Shown one piece after another: positions 2,468 through 53,822 of a DNA stretch of 64,000 bases (the first letter of the stretch is position 1; each line of letters opens with the position of its first letter). The notes under the pieces were generated by a model. That model was not told the origin of the DNA. It did no database searches and worked only from the letters and a program-made list of their open reading frames with translations. A program made the position numbers and the translations under genes. Source of the DNA: Sulfurimonas sp. (GTDB lineage Bacteria; Campylobacterota; Campylobacteria; Campylobacterales; Sulfurimonadaceae); assembly GCF_019429335.1 (NCBI RefSeq), contig NZ_JAHYJB010000001.1, positions 1 through 64,000 of the forward strand. The letters run 5' to 3'.

Positions 2468-3339
2468 TCTATCTCCGCTGTGCTTGAGCCTGTAACTCTT
2501 GCTTTTAAAATTTTTCCGCTGCTATTTTGAACATTTATTATATCATTTACTTTGCCATCTTGAAGAGCTTTTGCGCTAAAAGTTATTGCAATAGCATCTT
2601 TGTTCAGGCTTACGTTTATCGAAGCGTCTCTCTTTACGACGTCAAGCTCTTCAACGTCTCTTGAGGTTAATATCATGCCCTTTGGTATATGACGCTTTGC
2701 CTGAAATGATTTTTTATCTATATTTTGAAGCGGTTTTGCTCTGAAGCTCTCTAGCGGAATGTTTTTTCTTATGCAATTTGAGTGAGAAATGCGCATCTCT
2801 TTTTTTATTGTGTCTCTGCTTGTATATACCGGCAGGTTTGCTGTTATATAATAGTCAAAAAAAAGTTTTTTATTCTGCGGAGTTTTTATATTTACAATTC
2901 CGCTGCTTGACAAAAAATCGTTATTTCTAATGTTTACTACGAAATCTTGGGGTATGGATGTGATATATCCTCTTGGTTTTACTGAAATGCTTTTTATATC
3001 TATCTCCTCATACTCTTTTTTGTAGTAATCTTGTATCTTCTGCTCTATGTAAGAGGTGTCAATCGGGCTTTTTAAAATAAAATTTGTATAGTTGCTCTTT
3101 GAGGTCAGATTTTTATATCCATGCTCGCTTAGTATTTTTATTAAATCTTTTGTTTTGATTTTTAGAGAGTATCTGCTCTCTTCAATTCTAAGGATTTGAT
3201 AGTCATCTTTTGCTTCTGGAATTATTGAGGAGATATTTATATCTTTTGAATTTACGTAATAGATATCTTTTAGAGTATCGGAGGCATGCAGGTTTAGCAG
3301 TGCTAATAATAAAAAAAGAATTTTTACAAACATGTACAT
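2464..3339 (-). CDS. flgA: Flagellar basal body P-ring formation chaperone FlgA
   Basis: C-terminal SAF-like region: RHIPKGMILTSRDVEELDVVKR ... AKALQDGKVNDIINVQNSSGKILKARVTG. Confidence 0.85.
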   Translation of the reverse strand: MYMFVKILFLLLALLNLHASDTLKDIYYVNSKDINISSIIPEAKDDYQILRIEESRYSLKIKTKDLIKILSEHGYKNLTSKSNYTNFILKSPIDTSYIEQKIQDYYKKEYEEIDIKSISVKPRGYITSIPQDFVVNIRNNDFLSSSGIVNIKTPQNKKLFFDYYITANLPVYTSRDTIKKEMRISHSNCIRKNIPLESFRAKPLQNIDKKSFQAKRHIPKGMILTSRDVEELDVVKRDASINVSLNKDAIAITFSAKALQDGKVNDIINVQNSSGKILKARVTGSSTAEIE

Positions 3340-34009: not shown

Positions 34010-34333
34010 ATGCGAAAAAGAAAAATAACAACAAAGACTGCTAAAAAATATAGAGAAAAGAGAGCAGATCCTGTTGGCAAAATTGTTAGAAGACACTTAG
34101 AAACAATTATTCAAACTTCCGGCTTATCAGAAGATGAAATAATGGATAGACTAAAAAAATATGGCAAAAATTATTCAAAAGTTGAAGCATTAAAACTGAT
34201 GGTTTATAGATCTACGTTAAATTTAAGAAGTTTTGTTAGATTATTGCTCGCGCTGAACATAACTACTTATACTTTAGATATTAATGAAATTGAGGCTGAG
34301 GAAGTTAAGGAATATGAAAAGCTCATGAAGTGA
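34010..34333 (+). CDS. Hypothetical small basic protein upstream of the recombinase
   Basis: Provided ORF begins at TTG 33980; ATG at 34010 ([18 protein letters not shown]). Stop overlaps the recombinase start. Confidence 0.6.
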
Positions 34334-35253
34334 TGATTGACGATTCCCTTAAAATATCTAACATTCATTTCATTCTAAAAGAATATAAGATTTATCTACA
34401 AGTCCTTAAAAATTATGCAACGAATACTGTCAACATATATATCTCTTGTGTTGATGAGTTTGTATATTTTTTACAGGATAGCGATTATTATCATTTTTCG
34501 CAAATTGATAAAAATACTTTTTACAAATATATTAGTTTTGTAAAAAATAGGGCAAAAACTAAAAAATTGATTTCCAATAGAACGGTTAATTTTAAAATTG
34601 CTGCAATCAACAATTTCTCTGAATTCTTATGTAAAAAATATTATTCGTGCGAATTGCGCAAAGTAAAACAATTAAAGTATATCTCTGAAATACCAAATAT
34701 AATAGATGAGCAGGACATGCTAATTCTTCTAAAAACAAAAAATCCAATTTTTGATAGAAAAGCGAGCTGGGTTTCCTGCCGTGATTTTGCACTTACTGTG
34801 TTAATTTATTCTTCGGGAGCAAGAATATCAGAAATACTAAATACAACTTCCATAGACATGGACGATAAATGGATTAGGCTGGAGGGAACAAAGAATAAAA
34901 CAACAAGATATGTCCCAGTTAATATTCATGTACACATTGCGATCAACAACTATAAGGAGCAATGCCCCCTTTGTTTATTTAAGTGTTTGTGGATATGTAA
35001 AAGAGGAAAAAAACTTACAATACATGCTGCCTCAGCAGCAATAAAAAGAATGTTTGGATATTCTCCTCACTATTTTAGGCATGCTTTTGCGACACACCTT
35101 ATTTTAAATGGGTGTGACTTAAGAACTGTTCAGGAATTTTTAGGTCACAGTAGTTTGGTTACTACGAGCATATACACACACATCAAGCCAAAACATCTCA
35201 AAAAAACTATTGAGAAGTGTCACCCTCTATCTCCGAATCTTGAGTCTTCTTAA
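34330..35253 (+). CDS. Tyrosine recombinase (XerC/D-like integrase)
   Basis: [17 protein letters not shown] (Arg I), [39 protein letters not shown] (HxxR..GH..Y). Confidence 0.93.
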
Positions 35254-45969: not shown

Positions 45970-47856
45970 ATGGCAAAAGAAAAAAAAACAGACTTTGAAA
46001 TTTTAATTGACTTAAAGTTGCAGATGAAATCTTTTCTAAAAAAAGAAGAGAATGTCCGTAGAAAAATTGATAAAACACCGGATGAAAAAGAGTTCAAAAG
46101 GCTTCAAAAAGAATTAGATCTGCATATTTCCGGATTTAATGCTTTAGAGACTGCCCTTGTCGCTGCTGAAAAAAAAATGATAAACCTAGACCGTGGTTTG
46201 TATAAAGGTATTGGCATTGATGTGAGAGATAAACAATATGCAAAAATGCCAATTTATTTAAAATTTGCAAACCTAAATAATCATGTTGGCTATACGGGAA
46301 CCACTAGGGTAGGTAAAACAAAGAATATGATAAGCGATGCGAAACAACTTATCCAAAAAGGGTGGGATGTAATTATTGTTGATCCAAAAGGAGGGGAGGG
46401 GCAGGAGATATTGACAGAAACAATTCAAGCATCTCTTGAATCAAACAGAGCAGAGGACTTTAAGTTTCTCTCTCCTGCATTTCCGGACGAATCCGAACTT
46501 GTAAATCTTATGTTTGGAATGGGAGACGATGAAGCCGCTTCTATGATTAAAACCTTTGCAGAATCTATTAGTGATGATAACTTCTTCACAGGTGTTGTTT
46601 ATGAAAACACACTTGCTGCGCTAAAGGCGTTGACATTTATTCAAGCGGCAACCGATCCTTTTGGAACATATACTCAAAAATTAGAACAAGAAGAGATTCA
46701 GAGATATATCAAACTCAAAAATTTCAAAAACTTTTCTCAAAATGTCACAATGGATAAATGGAATAGAACATCTAATCCTAACGAGCTTCATATTTCAACA
46801 TTAAAACCCAAAACTTTGAACGAAAATCAAATTTTAAAAAAAGAAGCGTCTGGAACTCTTTATAGCAACAGAAGCATGGTTACTTTTAAGACACTTAGTA
46901 ATTATACAACATACGACAGTCTTGAGAGATTGAAAACAACAATTTCTAAAACAATCGCAATACCACCGGTTGATAGATTAGGGCATGAGCTATATGCACA
47001 TATATCGCATCTTCGGGAAGAAGCCTTGAGCATACTGGATAAAGTTCTCTCTACGGATAAGGCAAATTTTTCAAAGATTGCAAAAACACATTCGGTATTG
47101 CTTTCGCAATTAGTATATGGCGATATCGGCAAGGTTTTCAGTGGAAGCGGAATAAATATAATTTCCAATAGACTTCTCTCTGAGGATAAAGGTTTGATTT
47201 GCGTAATGCAACCGTACCCAATGAGATTTAAGACAGTCTCAAACGTATCGGTAATGGCAATGCTAAAATCGATAGAATCAATGATGGGCTTAGTTGGAAG
47301 TTCAGGACGAGGAAATAAAAGAAGACTAGCCATTATGATAGATGAAGCAGGTGCAGTAATGTATAAAGGGATAGAGGATTTGTTCAATAAGGCAGGGGGA
47401 CTTGGTGTAACTCTTTTTATTTATACGCAGAGTTATGAAGACTACTCTTTGTCTCTTGGACCGACAAATGCGAATGTTATAATGGATAATGTTAATACTC
47501 CTATAACAATGAGAATGAATCATCCGGAGTCTTGTAAAAGAGCTGCTGAATCTCTTGGAACTATAAGAAAAAACCAGAGTATGTATATGTCAAATTCTAC
47601 AGGGGGCAGTAGATTTTCTGTTGGAAGTGAAGATGAGCCGATTGCACTGCCGGAAGATATCTCTGAACTTCCCGTAGGTACTGGATTTATGCGACACGAT
47701 GGTAATACCTATATTGTAGATTTTCCATACATGAAAGGATTAAGCAACTATCCAATAAAGATGCCGACACTTGAGAACGAAAGGGCAAGAAGAAGCATCG
47801 CTGAATACGAAAGTCATTTTTTACAAAATCTTCATGGGCTTTCAATTGATGGATGA
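45970..47856 (+). CDS. TraD/VirD4-like conjugative coupling ATPase
   Basis: GYTGTTRVGKTKNMISDAKQLIQKGWDVIIVDPKGGEGQ; LAIMIDEAGAVMYKGIEDLFNKAGGLGVTLFIYTQSYEDY. Confidence 0.85.
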   Translation: MAKEKKTDFEILIDLKLQMKSFLKKEENVRRKIDKTPDEKEFKRLQKELDLHISGFNALETALVAAEKKMINLDRGLYKGIGIDVRDKQYAKMPIYLKFANLNNHVGYTGTTRVGKTKNMISDAKQLIQKGWDVIIVDPKGGEGQEILTETIQASLESNRAEDFKFLSPAFPDESELVNLMFGMGDDEAASMIKTFAESISDDNFFTGVVYENTLAALKALTFIQAATDPFGTYTQKLEQEEIQRYIKLKNFKNFSQNVTMDKWNRTSNPNELHISTLKPKTLNENQILKKEASGTLYSNRSMVTFKTLSNYTTYDSLERLKTTISKTIAIPPVDRLGHELYAHISHLREEALSILDKVLSTDKANFSKIAKTHSVLLSQLVYGDIGKVFSGSGINIISNRLLSEDKGLICVMQPYPMRFKTVSNVSVMAMLKSIESMMGLVGSSGRGNKRRLAIMIDEAGAVMYKGIEDLFNKAGGLGVTLFIYTQSYEDYSLSLGPTNANVIMDNVNTPITMRMNHPESCKRAAESLGTIRKNQSMYMSNSTGGSRFSVGSEDEPIALPEDISELPVGTGFMRHDGNTYIVDFPYMKGLSNYPIKMPTLENERARRSIAEYESHFLQNLHGLSIDG

Positions 47857-48880: not shown

Positions 48881-49628
48881 CAAAACCTAGCGTAAAACCA
48901 CCTCTTTTAAGGGGTGGAGTATCAATGGACGCAACCAATTTTATTTTAAATTAAGCATTAAGTAGATAAAGTTTGATAATTTATTTTATATTATTAAAAA
49001 CTAATCTCCCAAAACAAAAGCTTCTTTTGCCTTTGTATTGCATCCCATTGCGGAGTTTGGTTTCAAGAGACTATGTGTATCGCACATTACTCGACCAAAG
49101 GTCAACCCCGTTTGGATGAAACGAAGGACTGTTGACATTAACGGTTAACACTCGGCCGTTATAAAACTTCCCTAATTGCGGGGAAACCTTAAGAGATTTT
49201 TTAGCTACTAACTATCCATGGTAACATAGGGTAGGGCGAACGGTAATGCGTTAGTAGCTATTAAGGTGGGGAACATCAGTGGATACGATAAGACATAAGT
49301 GCTTTTTGTACCATTGTTTCTTCCCCACCTTAGTAGCTACTTTAATCGGCATAGTAAAAAGGCTAAAAAGTACAGCAGTTGTTTAAACTGCTATAAGACA
49401 ATCCGCAGCGAGCTATCTTCATAATCATTTTATTAAAAAATTGCCCTCTTATATAGCAATTTCTTTCATTCTTTGAATTTCAACATAATTACTTTATTGA
49501 AGATAGCCGTTCAGAGACTATCGAAAAGCAACAGAAATGTTGAACCTAGTAGAGTAAGTCACAAGCCCTTATTTAAACTTTTTTACATTATTGATTCCTA
49601 GGAAAATAAAAATACTAAGGAAAATAAA

Positions 49629-50528
49629 ATGGCAGAAGAAAACACTGAAACAACATTAACACTAGAGCAAACCGAACAAAGAAGAGAAAAAAATCGTGTA
49701 AAAAGAGCTAGACAAAGAGCTAGAAAATTGCAAGAAACTCTTCATGATAAGCCTCTGAAAGAAAATCCAGAGCCGGTGAAAGCACCTCAGAAAAAACCGC
49801 AAGAACGAAGAGCGAGACTCTCTAACGAAGAGTATGCGAAACAGCAATTGGAATTCAAATCAAAAAGAATCGAAATGAATCCAAAAGACGCAGTCGTTTC
49901 AATCGCCGAAGCAACTGAAGCAAAAACATTGGCATACAATGTTAGCGAAGTCAACACAATCGCAGAATATGTTCGTAGCAACTTGGGTTCAAGAGTTCCA
50001 ATGGATCTTGGAATTTTATTAATAAATACATTCCAAGAAGGTGTCGCAAAAACAATCGAAGACTATATTAAGTTGGCAAACTCACAAGGAATCGGTTCAA
50101 GAAGAGCATTGGCTCTTTATAAAGAGGTGCAAACGAAAGAGAAAAACAGAGCTGTAGCCCAAGAGCTCTTTAGAGAGAAGACAATTGAAAGTGAAACTCC
50201 GGAAGAGACTAAAGAGCGCGAAGCACAAGAGAAAGCCTTGGAAAAAGCTACGGCGGAGCTAGCAAAAGCTACGGCGGAGCTAGCAAAAGCTAAAGAAGCG
50301 CTAGTAAAAGCAGAAGAGCTAGAAGCAGAAGCTGAAAAAGTTTTGGATGCAGGTTTTGAAAAGAGGCACGCTGATCAAAAAGAGAGAGAAAAAGCAGAAG
50401 CTGCTAAAGCTAGAGAAGCTGCAAAAGCTGCCGCTGAAGAAGTAAAGATTGAAAAAGCTAAAGCTAGAGAAGCTGCAAAAGCTGCCGCTGAAGAAGTAAA
50501 GATTGAAAAAGCGGACGCTGCCGTGTAA
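49629..50528 (+). CDS. Lys/Glu/Ala-rich coiled-coil protein inside the group I-like RNA
   Basis: 299 aa starting MAEENTETTLTLEQTEQRREKNRVKRARQRARKLQ; no LAGLIDADG, GIY-YIG or HNH motif seen; C-terminal tandem duplications. Confidence 0.7.
   Translation: MAEENTETTLTLEQTEQRREKNRVKRARQRARKLQETLHDKPLKENPEPVKAPQKKPQERRARLSNEEYAKQQLEFKSKRIEMNPKDAVVSIAEATEAKTLAYNVSEVNTIAEYVRSNLGSRVPMDLGILLINTFQEGVAKTIEDYIKLANSQGIGSRRALALYKEVQTKEKNRAVAQELFREKTIESETPEETKEREAQEKALEKATAELAKATAELAKAKEALVKAEELEAEAEKVLDAGFEKRHADQKEREKAEAAKAREAAKAAAEEVKIEKAKAREAAKAAAEEVKIEKADAAV
50405..50512 (+). repeat. Two perfect 54-bp tandem repeats within the CDS
   Basis: taaagctagagaagctgcaaaagctgccgctgaagaagtaaagattgaaaaagc x2 (KAREAAKAAAEEVKIEKA). 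Confidence 0.95.
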
Positions 50529-50970
50529 GTAAAATTACGAATACAGCTTAAAAGAAGTTGAATCAATGTGTAGAAATAAATTTAAATAAAAAGTGATTGA
50601 AACGGGAAGCTTTATGTATAACGATAAAAAATCTATGGAATCTAGTGCTCTTTTGGATTTTTGTCGTTAGCATATAATATTATGAAGTGTAAATACATTT
50701 TACTAATATTGTAACATATTGAAAATATAGTCCGCTCCATATAGCGATGTATGGCAGTTTTTATAGGAGATATCTATTATTGCATAGCTATTTTCTATAA
50801 AAACGGTTAATTCTTTGGCAGGAACTAATGAACACAAAGGAATAAAAAGATTTTTTTCATGAAAAATATTGCATCAAAATCAATTTAGCTATTTAGCGGT
50901 TGCGCAGTATTCTTTCTTGCAACTATTTAGTTGTAAAAAGTGAAAAAATGATTTTGTTACAAAAAAAACC

Positions 50971-51025: not shown

Positions 51026-51120
51026 TTGTTTTGAAATATTGAATGTAAAATAAAGCATTAATTACTTAATTGATAGTGTTTTTACTGAATATACCAATAA
51101 ACAATTTGAATATAAACTCC

Positions 51121-51349
51121 CATAAGGAGATAAGAACTATTTTTTATTTCCTTACAAAGGGAGTATTATGCCTAGTCTCTTGTCTTTTTATGGGAATCTA
51201 TATTCCAATAAAAAATTTAATCTCTCAATCTATCTAACAATCAACACTTCTTTAATATCACTTTGAGTACAGCTTCGGGCTTACCTTGAAAGGCATCGTG
51301 ATTTGAATTGTTGTTTTGATTTAGAGGGGAGATTTACAAGGAGGCTATT
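51121..51349 (+). promoter_or_regulatory. Structured 5' leader, copy 1 (SSB-tail gene)
   Basis: CCCATAA/TTATGGG outer stem, GGAATCTATATTCC hairpin, ATCAC/GTGAT stem enclosing GTACAGCTTCGGGCTTACCTTGAAAGG. Confidence 0.6.
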
Positions 51350-51880
51350 ATGGCAACTCAAACAAAAAGAAGTTACGGAAAAGAGCGCACATTCGGGGAT
51401 ATTATTTATAATCCTAAAACAAAGAGCGTTTTTTGTTCAATCAACTTAGGTTTCTTCGGAAAAACTACCGTTACTCTTGTTAAACGTCAAGATGATGGTG
51501 CTTATGATTTAATGAAAGCTTATACGGATCATAATGGTCAAGAGCAAGTAGTTTGTATAGGTAAAACTTTTCCTTCTAAACGAAAAGATGGTTCTGTCGT
51601 AGATGGTTTAACTCAAGGCACTCTTGGGCTTTTAAAACGCTACGATAGTGAAAAGAAAAAAGAGCTCACTGACTCTTCTGATGCTTTGTTTATCACAACT
51701 CACAAGTTGAAAGAAAACAAGCCTCTTGGCGATAGTGGTCTTGTTAAGGTAGGGTATATCTCTGGTCGTTTCGGTATCGAAGATGATATTACATCAAATA
51801 ATAGTGCTTCTTCGCAAGAAGAAAACTATCAAAACGATGAGCCGCAATATGATGACGATGGAGATGAAGTTCCTTTCTGA
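51350..51880 (+). CDS. Hypothetical protein with SSB-like acidic C-terminal tail
   Basis: C-terminus NDEPQYDDDGDEVPF resembles the SSB tip (DDDIPF); adjacent to recT. Body not recognised. Confidence 0.6.
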   Translation: MATQTKRSYGKERTFGDIIYNPKTKSVFCSINLGFFGKTTVTLVKRQDDGAYDLMKAYTDHNGQEQVVCIGKTFPSKRKDGSVVDGLTQGTLGLLKRYDSEKKKELTDSSDALFITTHKLKENKPLGDSGLVKVGYISGRFGIEDDITSNNSASSQEENYQNDEPQYDDDGDEVPF

Positions 51881-52440: not shown

Positions 52441-52671
52441 TTCCCACGAGGGAGTTTTTGACTCCCTCAAAGGGATACTTATGTCAATAAACTTCTTGGT
52501 GGGAATCTATATTCCACAAAAAAACTAATCAATTCTCTCATCTAACAATTCATCTTCACACAAAACACATTATCAGTACAGCTTTAGGCTTTACCTTGAA
52601 AGGGATATTTGTGTCGTGAATTTAAATTGATTTGTGGGGTTTGGTTTATAAGGAGCTTGGCATGAGTAATG
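52441..52671 (+). promoter_or_regulatory. Structured 5' leader, copy 2 (recT)
   Basis: TTCCCAC/GTGGGAA outer stem, GGAATCTATATTCC hairpin, ACACAAA/TTTGTGT stem enclosing GTACAGCTTTAGGCTTTACCTTGAAAGG. Confidence 0.6.
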
Positions 52672-53822
52672 AACAAAATAATGGACGCAGAACTAATTTG
52701 CAGATTTTAGATGATCGCAGAGATGAGCTTGCAAATGGATTAGCTACATATAAACAGTTTCTTGAGGTTATACCTGTAAATAAGCAGGAACAATTCAAAA
52801 GAAACTTCTTGGAGCTATGCACGCAAGATTACCTCTTAAGTATCATTGATACAAAAGAGCTGATAAGATTTGCAACAAATGTGACAAAAACAGGGCTTGA
52901 TATAGCACCCTCTTCAAAAGAGGTATATATCATCCCATTTGATACCTTGGTCAACAAGGTTAAAACAATGCTTCCACAAGCAATCATCCCTTTAAATGGT
53001 ATGCAACAGTTAGCATATCAAAAAGGTTTCTTTCTACAGCTTGATGCTGTATGGAAATTTGATGATGGTACTTGTGAAGCAGAATCGAAGCTATCCCGCC
53101 TACAGCAAAGTCAACTCCAGACGGCTAATGCCAAATGGGTTGATACTCACTTTATCGGGTTTGAGGTTGTTTTAAAGGACATGAAAAACGAGATACCGAC
53201 TCAAACAAAGTTCGTAGATCTAAATTACGTCAAAGAAGCGACTAAGACTATTAAAGATGAGCGTTGGAAACTTCAAACGTGGAGACATAAGGCTGTTCGC
53301 AGAGCTTATGGAGATTTTATGATTCCACGGGATCGTAAAATTGAAGCGTTTGAAGAGATAGAACATCTTAACGACTCTATTCTTGGAGAAGCAGAAGTGC
53401 TTCCTCAAAAATTTCTCACAAAAGAAATTGAGGATGGAGTAAAACAGTTAGGTCTATCGGTTTCAAAAAACGACGGTATAGCAAAAGTAGAGGGTAAGAC
53501 TTTTGGAAAAGATAAAGTATTGGTAAATATGGGTTTTGTGTATGAAAACGGAACTTATGCAATGCAGTATCAGGAACAAGAGTCTCTGCCTAAGCCAGAA
53601 CAATCAAAACAAAAATCTCCTGCATATCGTCTAATGCAATATCTTAAAGATAATGGTTTACATAAAGACGAGATCGGTTCATTTGTAAAAGACGAACTAG
53701 GTTTAAGTAGTGAAGATGTCGAAGGAATTGAAACCGTATTGTTAGATATGGGAACACTGAATGAAAAAATTCAAAGTTTTCTAACTACAAGCGACAATGA
53801 AGTTCCCGAGAGTATGTTTTAA
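52662..53822 (+). CDS. recT: RecT-family ssDNA annealing protein
   Basis: ATKTGLDIAPSSKEVYIIPF...VKTMLPQAIIPLNGMQQLAYQKG..., ERWKLQTWRHKAVRRAYGDFMIPR; ATG at 52662 (MSNEQNNGRR). Confidence 0.82.
   Translation: MSNEQNNGRRTNLQILDDRRDELANGLATYKQFLEVIPVNKQEQFKRNFLELCTQDYLLSIIDTKELIRFATNVTKTGLDIAPSSKEVYIIPFDTLVNKVKTMLPQAIIPLNGMQQLAYQKGFFLQLDAVWKFDDGTCEAESKLSRLQQSQLQTANAKWVDTHFIGFEVVLKDMKNEIPTQTKFVDLNYVKEATKTIKDERWKLQTWRHKAVRRAYGDFMIPRDRKIEAFEEIEHLNDSILGEAEVLPQKFLTKEIEDGVKQLGLSVSKNDGIAKVEGKTFGKDKVLVNMGFVYENGTYAMQYQEQESLPKPEQSKQKSPAYRLMQYLKDNGLHKDEIGSFVKDELGLSSEDVEGIETVLLDMGTLNEKIQSFLTTSDNEVPESMF

Follow-up and report, generated by a model that had tools for sequence, protein, structure and literature searches.

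A group IA intron with a non-homing ORF, a probable resident of Campylobacterota conjugative elements

The locus analyzed here raises the question why a group I ribozyme core should lie in a conjugative element outside any obvious split gene, with an ORF inside it that is not a homing endonuclease. It was found in the window, the whole stretch of 64,000 nt from Sulfurimonas sp. (contig NZ_JAHYJB010000001.1, positions 1 to 64,000). A sequence-only reading had recognized the core as that of a group I intron within an accessory element, had noted that the ORF is not of the homing type and had seen no gene that was obviously split; all three points proved correct. The core is confirmed at the sequence level as real and beyond chance. 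We consider it probable (about 0.72) that it belongs to a group IA self-splicing intron permanently resident in Campylobacterota conjugative elements at the junction of tra and ssb/recT genes.

Identity, parts and extent of the intron

The best estimate for the extent of the predicted group IA intron, with P2-P9.2, P7.1 and P7.2, is 49035-50830 on the plus strand. The region proposed earlier (49060-50790) was the right one, but the intron is longer. Core elements P, Q, R and S were all found in order within a P3-P9 catalytic fold, the limits of Q being approximate, and P7.1 and P7.2 are sited between P7 and the 3' strand of P3, as in subgroup IA. The P4, P6, P7 and P3 pairings already proposed were verified. 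The intron is of the self-splicing type by class, and splicing itself is predicted. The parts and their context in the window are as follows.

34330..35253, plus strand, tyrosine integrase of the integrative conjugative element (context)
45970..47856, plus strand, upstream TraD/TraG-type coupling protein (context)
49030..49034, plus strand, last 5 nt (CCTTT) of the candidate 5' exon; P1 with GAAGG at 49123-49127, terminal U.G; putative 5' splice site after 49034; moderate confidence
49123..49127, plus strand, candidate internal guide sequence GAAGG
49139..49161, plus strand, P2 hairpin TAACGG/CCGTTA (49139-49144/49156-49161); covaries in homologues, folded with p=0.77
49167..49172, plus strand, P3 5' strand CTTCCC; partner 50604-50609
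49172..49254, plus strand, P5 peripheral block; 78% identity to a phage J2-1 intron (blastn)
49174..49188, plus strand, core element P; contains the P4 5' strand 49176-49181
49398..49409, plus strand, core element Q; P4 3' strand 49403-49408
49412..49507, plus strand, P6 helix GCTATCTTC/GAAGATAGC, from sequence and fold
49509..49521, plus strand, core element R; P7 5' strand GACTAT 49516-49521
49529..49542, plus strand, P7.1 hairpin CAACA-gaaa-TGTTG; same position as in V6Aob and cr3_1
49557..49577, plus strand, P7.2 5' strand, AGTCAC (49557-49562) then TTATTTAAA (49569-49577)
49629..50528, plus strand, ORF of 299 aa wholly within the P7.2 loop; rich in Lys/Glu/Ala, predicted helical; no match to a family
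50581..50598, plus strand, P7.2 3' strand, TTTAAATAA (50581-50589) then GTGATT (50593-50598)
50604..50609, plus strand, P3 3' strand GGGAAG
50613..50718, plus strand, P8 domain, TATGT/ACATA and two hairpins; P8 is the weakest helix in the window
50721..50733, plus strand, core element S; P7 3' strand ATAGTC 50727-50732
50737..50754, plus strand, P9 CCATA/TATGG
50757..50804, plus strand, P9.1 hairpin
50807..50830, plus strand, P9.2 hairpin, then the terminal G at 50830; 3' splice site inferred by homology to J2-1
50831, plus strand, inferred start of the 3' exon, AACACAAAGG
51350..51880, plus strand, downstream SSB-tail gene (context)
52632..53822, plus strand, downstream RecT-like gene (context)

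The ORF had been placed between R and S. It does lie inside the intron, but its place is P7.2, ahead of the 3' strand of P3, and not simply P8. J8/7 reads GAAAATATAGTC in the window against GAAGATATAGTC in the Rfam consensus, which is matched in the introns of N. labii, C. upsaliensis and G101. A TTAGTAGCTA-type segment occurs three times in the P5 domain (49201-49341), also as a minus-strand self match, and this inverted repeat lets two long hairpins compete.

The two core halves matched phage group I introns independently in blastn searches (E 5e-8 to 8e-6). The block with P and P5 matched Pseudoalteromonas phage J2-1 (78%, 2e-7), and the R block matched the crAss-like cr3_1 (6e-7), V6Aob (8e-6) and MT837219 (5e-8). 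Rfam Intron_gpI (RF00028) matches were obtained in V6Aob (70.3 bits) and J2-1 (64.2 bits) at or alongside the blocks matching the window. Judged from sequence, the matches to phage introns that Rfam recognizes and the six homologous introns described below settle the identity of the window intron. The phage group IA introns (V6Aob, J2-1, the crAss-like cr3_1 DNA polymerase, and phoH and gp32 in IMG/VR) have the same core, and share with the conjugative-element introns the P7.1/P7.2 register, the gaaac-P3' segment, the P9.2 loop and the terminal G at the 3' junction. They split protein genes, whereas the conjugative-element introns do not. The J2-1 genome (L009, 1729-3450) has three group I introns in a row within 1.8 kb, and its annotation covers only the HNH gene of the third.

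The window itself gave no cmscan match to RF00028, even at E 10, nor did the G145, G328, pCIG1485E and C. upsaliensis homologues. The test suggested earlier, a single Intron_gpI match spanning both halves, thus fails for the window. It is not a fair one, because ORFs split real introns into two matches: the third J2-1 intron, a control bearing an HNH gene, gave 25.8 and 24.4 bits, and the N. labii intron was matched on both sides of its ORF with 42.6 bits (E 4e-8) and 35.1 bits (E 7e-6), both lower than the gathering score of 50 bits. The ORF-less V6Aob control gave one match of 70.3 bits. Rfam therefore misses the window intron because a 1-kb ORF splits the model, and standard Rfam searches will miss other introns interrupted in this way. 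Pattern scans of IMG/VR with P alone returned matches nearly all due to chance. The P7.1-P7.2 pattern was found in one IMG/VR contig and in zero genome contigs, and the 3'-end pattern recovered six introns in 120 IMG/VR stretches.

The intron family and its conserved helices

Six homologous introns were detected besides that of the window, giving seven conjugative elements of Campylobacterota. Their hosts are the genomes G145 and G328 (Arcobacteraceae), Campylobacter iguaniorum pCIG1485E, a Campylobacter upsaliensis plasmid, Nitrosophilus labii pHRV44 (Nautiliales) and the genome G101, which belongs to the same genus as the window. All seven introns are located at a tra/ssb junction, so that one site is held in divergent elements of two orders with covarying helices. 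In pCIG1485E, the C. upsaliensis plasmid, pHRV44 and G101 the intron lies between tra genes and an annotated ssb or SSB-like ORF, with a few non-tra genes separating it from the tra genes in the C. upsaliensis plasmid. The introns of G145 and G328 (72% identical over 1.5 kb) precede homologues of the SSB-like and RecT-like genes of the window. The pCIG1485E plasmid is reported to be similar in gene layout to CampyICE1-like elements of Campylobacter, and the paper describing these does not mention an intron or a ribozyme (PMC8743540). In the plasmid table, a 72-codon gene of pCIG1485E (L118, 30822-31037) is labelled ANT(4')-IIb with 100% identity; it is very short for that enzyme and is probably a spurious call.

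P7.2 was tested in a fixed register, comparing the six bases directly 3' of GAGTA (ATCGTA in G145) with the six directly 5' of GAAA(C/T). Across 0.6-1.0 kb of ORF-bearing loop, 40 of the 42 positions pair in the seven elements. Only one of 5040 partner permutations, the true one, reached 40 pairs (mean 26), and sliding one strand left 9-19 pairs. No position of the helix has fewer than two types of pair. In the phage relatives, P7.2 is a small hairpin with a loop of 3-9 nt in the same frame (GTAGAGTA, P7.2, gaa(a/g)C). For P1, P4, distal P7.2, P8, P9, P9.1 and P9.2, the paired fraction was 0.97-1.00 for the true partners, as against 0.44-0.68 after swapping; these helices were picked by eye beforehand, so that the contrast indicates covariation and not an unbiased probability, P7.2 alone having been tested in a fixed register. 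P2 and P3 did not show the contrast, their strands being alike in most elements.

For folding, GAAA took the place of the ORF loop in the window intron and P7 alone was forced open; the fold was otherwise unguided. The minimum-energy fold contained P2, P3 (pair probability 0.92), P4, both P7.2 segments, P9 and P9.1, and P8 was absent from it (p=0.10). The 5' half of the intron folds at z = -6.6 and the 3' part at z = -3.5.

Splice sites, exons and internal ORFs

The predicted 3' splice site is anchored by the P9.2 hairpin followed by G/AAC (a slash marking the junction). In J2-1 the reading frame LPG/NTTAV fixes the junction after a GTAACGA-loop hairpin and TTG. P9.2 is followed by G/AAC, once by G/ACC, in all seven elements, each intron thus having a terminal G, and this common arrangement places the 3' end of the window intron at 50830. 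The sequence of G145 from 9893 on recurs without the intron in Aliarcobacter plasmids and in G267, so that the intron end is bounded at the predicted base.

The candidate 5' splice site is fairly well placed in five elements, G145 and G328 excepted. In the window, G101, pCIG1485E, pHRV44 and C. upsaliensis, a P1 can be drawn whose guide sequence lies 7-11 nt ahead of P2, and its partners change together (own 27/27 pairs, swapped 47/102). No P1 of such kind could be drawn in G145 or G328. The pair at the splice site is U.G in the window, C. upsaliensis and G101, and is proposed to be C-G in C. iguaniorum and N. labii. The spacing from the candidate 5' exon end to P2 in the window resembles that of the C. 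upsaliensis, C. iguaniorum and N. labii introns. In the window, P1 has only five pairs, with a bulge and an 84-nt loop, and P10 was not seen. To call the ribozyme free-standing, as had been suggested, was too strong: since the 3' splice-site pattern is conserved and the 5' one plausible, the window intron may still splice a leader RNA. The alternative term used there, a repurposed ribozyme, is plausible.

The exons are non-coding or encode a tiny peptide, and no conserved gene is interrupted by the intron. At most, joined exons would encode a tiny in-frame peptide starting with MKF in three plasmids; the other four elements have no such frame. ARAGORN detected no tRNA host gene near the window intron, and a joined-exon pattern taken from an early junction guess (GTTAATTC) matched nothing in 199 relatives.

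In each of the seven introns the P7.2 loop contains an ORF, 141-305 aa long, and a plausible ribosome-binding site stands in the sequence ahead of every start. No homing endonuclease family, as expected of a mobile group I intron, and no transposase family was identified in the ORFs scanned against Pfam, NCBIfam and PHROGs. Homology links the ORFs of C. iguaniorum and N. labii (4e-21), and that of C. upsaliensis joins them (tblastn 2e-4). Those of G145 and G328 are 68% identical, and 80 of their residues align weakly with the C. iguaniorum/N. labii ORFs (P 0.007, profile comparison); apart from the window/G101 pair given below, the other profile comparisons gave nothing. The ORF pair of G145 and G328 is under purifying selection (dN 0.23, dS 1.29, dN/dS ~0.18), with most variation at third codon positions.

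For the window ORF, no homologues were found in 199 relatives or IMG/VR, and with the G101 ORF there was only a weak local match over a short QGxGSxRxLxxY stretch (P 0.04). It is predicted to be all-helical with low confidence (pLDDT 63.5, pTM 0.30, single sequence), a model of insufficient quality for a fold search, and a PDB profile search returned nothing meaningful. The 3' end of the ORF holds a perfect 54-nt tandem duplication (50403-50510) and a 21-nt repeat (50243-50305), which suggest that the Lys/Glu/Ala tail is growing by slippage.

Origin and possible role

The most likely explanation is a ribozyme of conjugative elements that has lost homing and carries an element gene. Using guanosine as cofactor, the ribozyme would cut itself out of a short leader transcript, untranslated or encoding a tiny peptide. 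The leader would be joined upstream of the ssb module, and the message of the ORF would stay in the intron and be expressed from within it. After the loss of homing, the intron may have been kept for the element gene, for splicing-set expression of its neighbors, or for both; the element might gain a helper that binds RNA, a gene that serves when it enters the recipient, or a switch that acts on the ssb module through splicing. More tentatively, the ribozyme may have been domesticated as a tra/ssb cassette in which the P7.2 protein family replaced the homing endonuclease and splicing couples this protein to the ssb and recombination genes needed on transfer.

It seems doubtful that the splicing choice, and not the ORF, is what matters, a domesticated switch controlling the downstream leader and ssb/recT in the manner of the c-di-GMP-controlled group I ribozyme of Clostridium difficile. 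Promoter-like TTGACA/TTGACT boxes do lie just 5' of the intron in G145, G328, pCIG1485E and pHRV44, the 3' exon of G145 and G328 leads into regulatory leaders, and the 5' splice region is itself folded. However, the promoter signal in the window is not above chance, and no riboswitch aptamer known to Rfam was found at six of the loci. An ordinary mobile intron, whose homing endonuclease has decayed or been replaced, with the ORF as passenger and the intron being lost, is an unlikely reading, given the one site kept across two orders with covarying helices, the constant place of the ORF in P7.2 and the selected ORF pair. On the other hand, phage relatives bear HNH, GIY-YIG or other homing genes, and a mobile phage intron is a likely ancestor because gp32-type ssb introns in IMG/VR have the same 3' junction, G/AACATAAAG. 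Six IMG/VR contigs have a T4 gp32-like ssDNA-binding gene, its gp32 identity confirmed, that is split by a group I intron precisely ahead of Asn-Ile-Lys (AACATAAAG), codons with which the conjugative-element 3' exons also begin; the search pattern was derived from the ICE introns, which makes this a lead and not proof. As such a lead, the common junction would explain a phage ancestor of the ICE introns. That these adjoin ssb genes, gp32 being likewise ssDNA-binding, may be coincidence. The gp32-splitting introns (L156, L165, L193, L206, L215 and L222) have a 307-aa homing-type ORF in P5.

The deviating J8/7 of the window and the weak P1/P10 could indicate a degenerate, non-catalytic remnant, its folded RNA kept otherwise or by chance. 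This is quite improbable, as P3-P9 is intact with compensatory changes and J8/7 has the consensus sequence in N. labii, C. upsaliensis and G101. An IStron, i.e., a group I intron fused to an IS605-type transposon, would likewise be an ORF-bearing intron outside a gene, but none of the ORFs scanned matched TnpA/TnpB or another transposase, and this origin is hardly conceivable.

The reading as a resident ribozyme that has lost homing sets these introns apart from known ones. The ORFs of phage introns, where present, are homing endonucleases or HNH/GIY-YIG genes in P5, P6 or P8, P7.2 being a small hairpin. The c-di-GMP riboswitch/group I ribozyme of Clostridium difficile lies in a leader and not inside a protein gene. 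It has been counted among tandem riboswitches (PMC9481103). The window intron is similar in its non-coding setting, but differs in its large internal ORF and in that no riboswitch was found. IStrons likewise combine an intron with an ORF other than a homing endonuclease (PMC4227781), whereas the conjugative-element ORFs are not transposases and their site is fixed in conjugative elements. A review of bacterial group I introns gives homing endonucleases as their ORFs and tRNA, rRNA and protein genes as their hosts (PMC3984707). A persistent non-homing group I intron of conjugative elements with changing P7.2 ORFs was not found in a search of open-access papers. Thus, the catalytic RNA is of a known kind, and what is new is its persistent form in conjugative elements. 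That seven elements have a ribozyme at one fixed non-coding site, always with an unrelated, changing ORF in one loop, points to retention for function and not for homing, and the non-homing gene in place of a homing gene suggests that the element makes use of the ribozyme. This would be an example of ribozyme domestication in bacteria that can be put to the test.

Two leader-like sequences were observed near these loci. A recurrent motif of ~90 nt lies 5' of the SSB-like and RecT-like genes of the window (51117-51210 and 52443-52530), and also at L059 8850-8960 (minus strand), L061 1525-1605 and L062 1480-1555. In alignment, an ACTCCCA..GGAG or CATTCCCA..GGGAG hairpin is followed by GGGA(G/T).. 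and then by TGGGAATCTAttTCC pairing back, which looks like an undescribed cis-regulatory leader common to the element family. A conserved leader of ~135 nt occurs in Arcobacteraceae plasmids and genomes (L058 9893-10030, L097-L101 ~3001-3136, and L102). It has four mutually complementary segments (AACTAGCACA, TGTGCTAGT, TGTGTTAGTT and AACTAACA) and ends at an AAGGAGG site with a small gene next, thereby resembling an attenuator.
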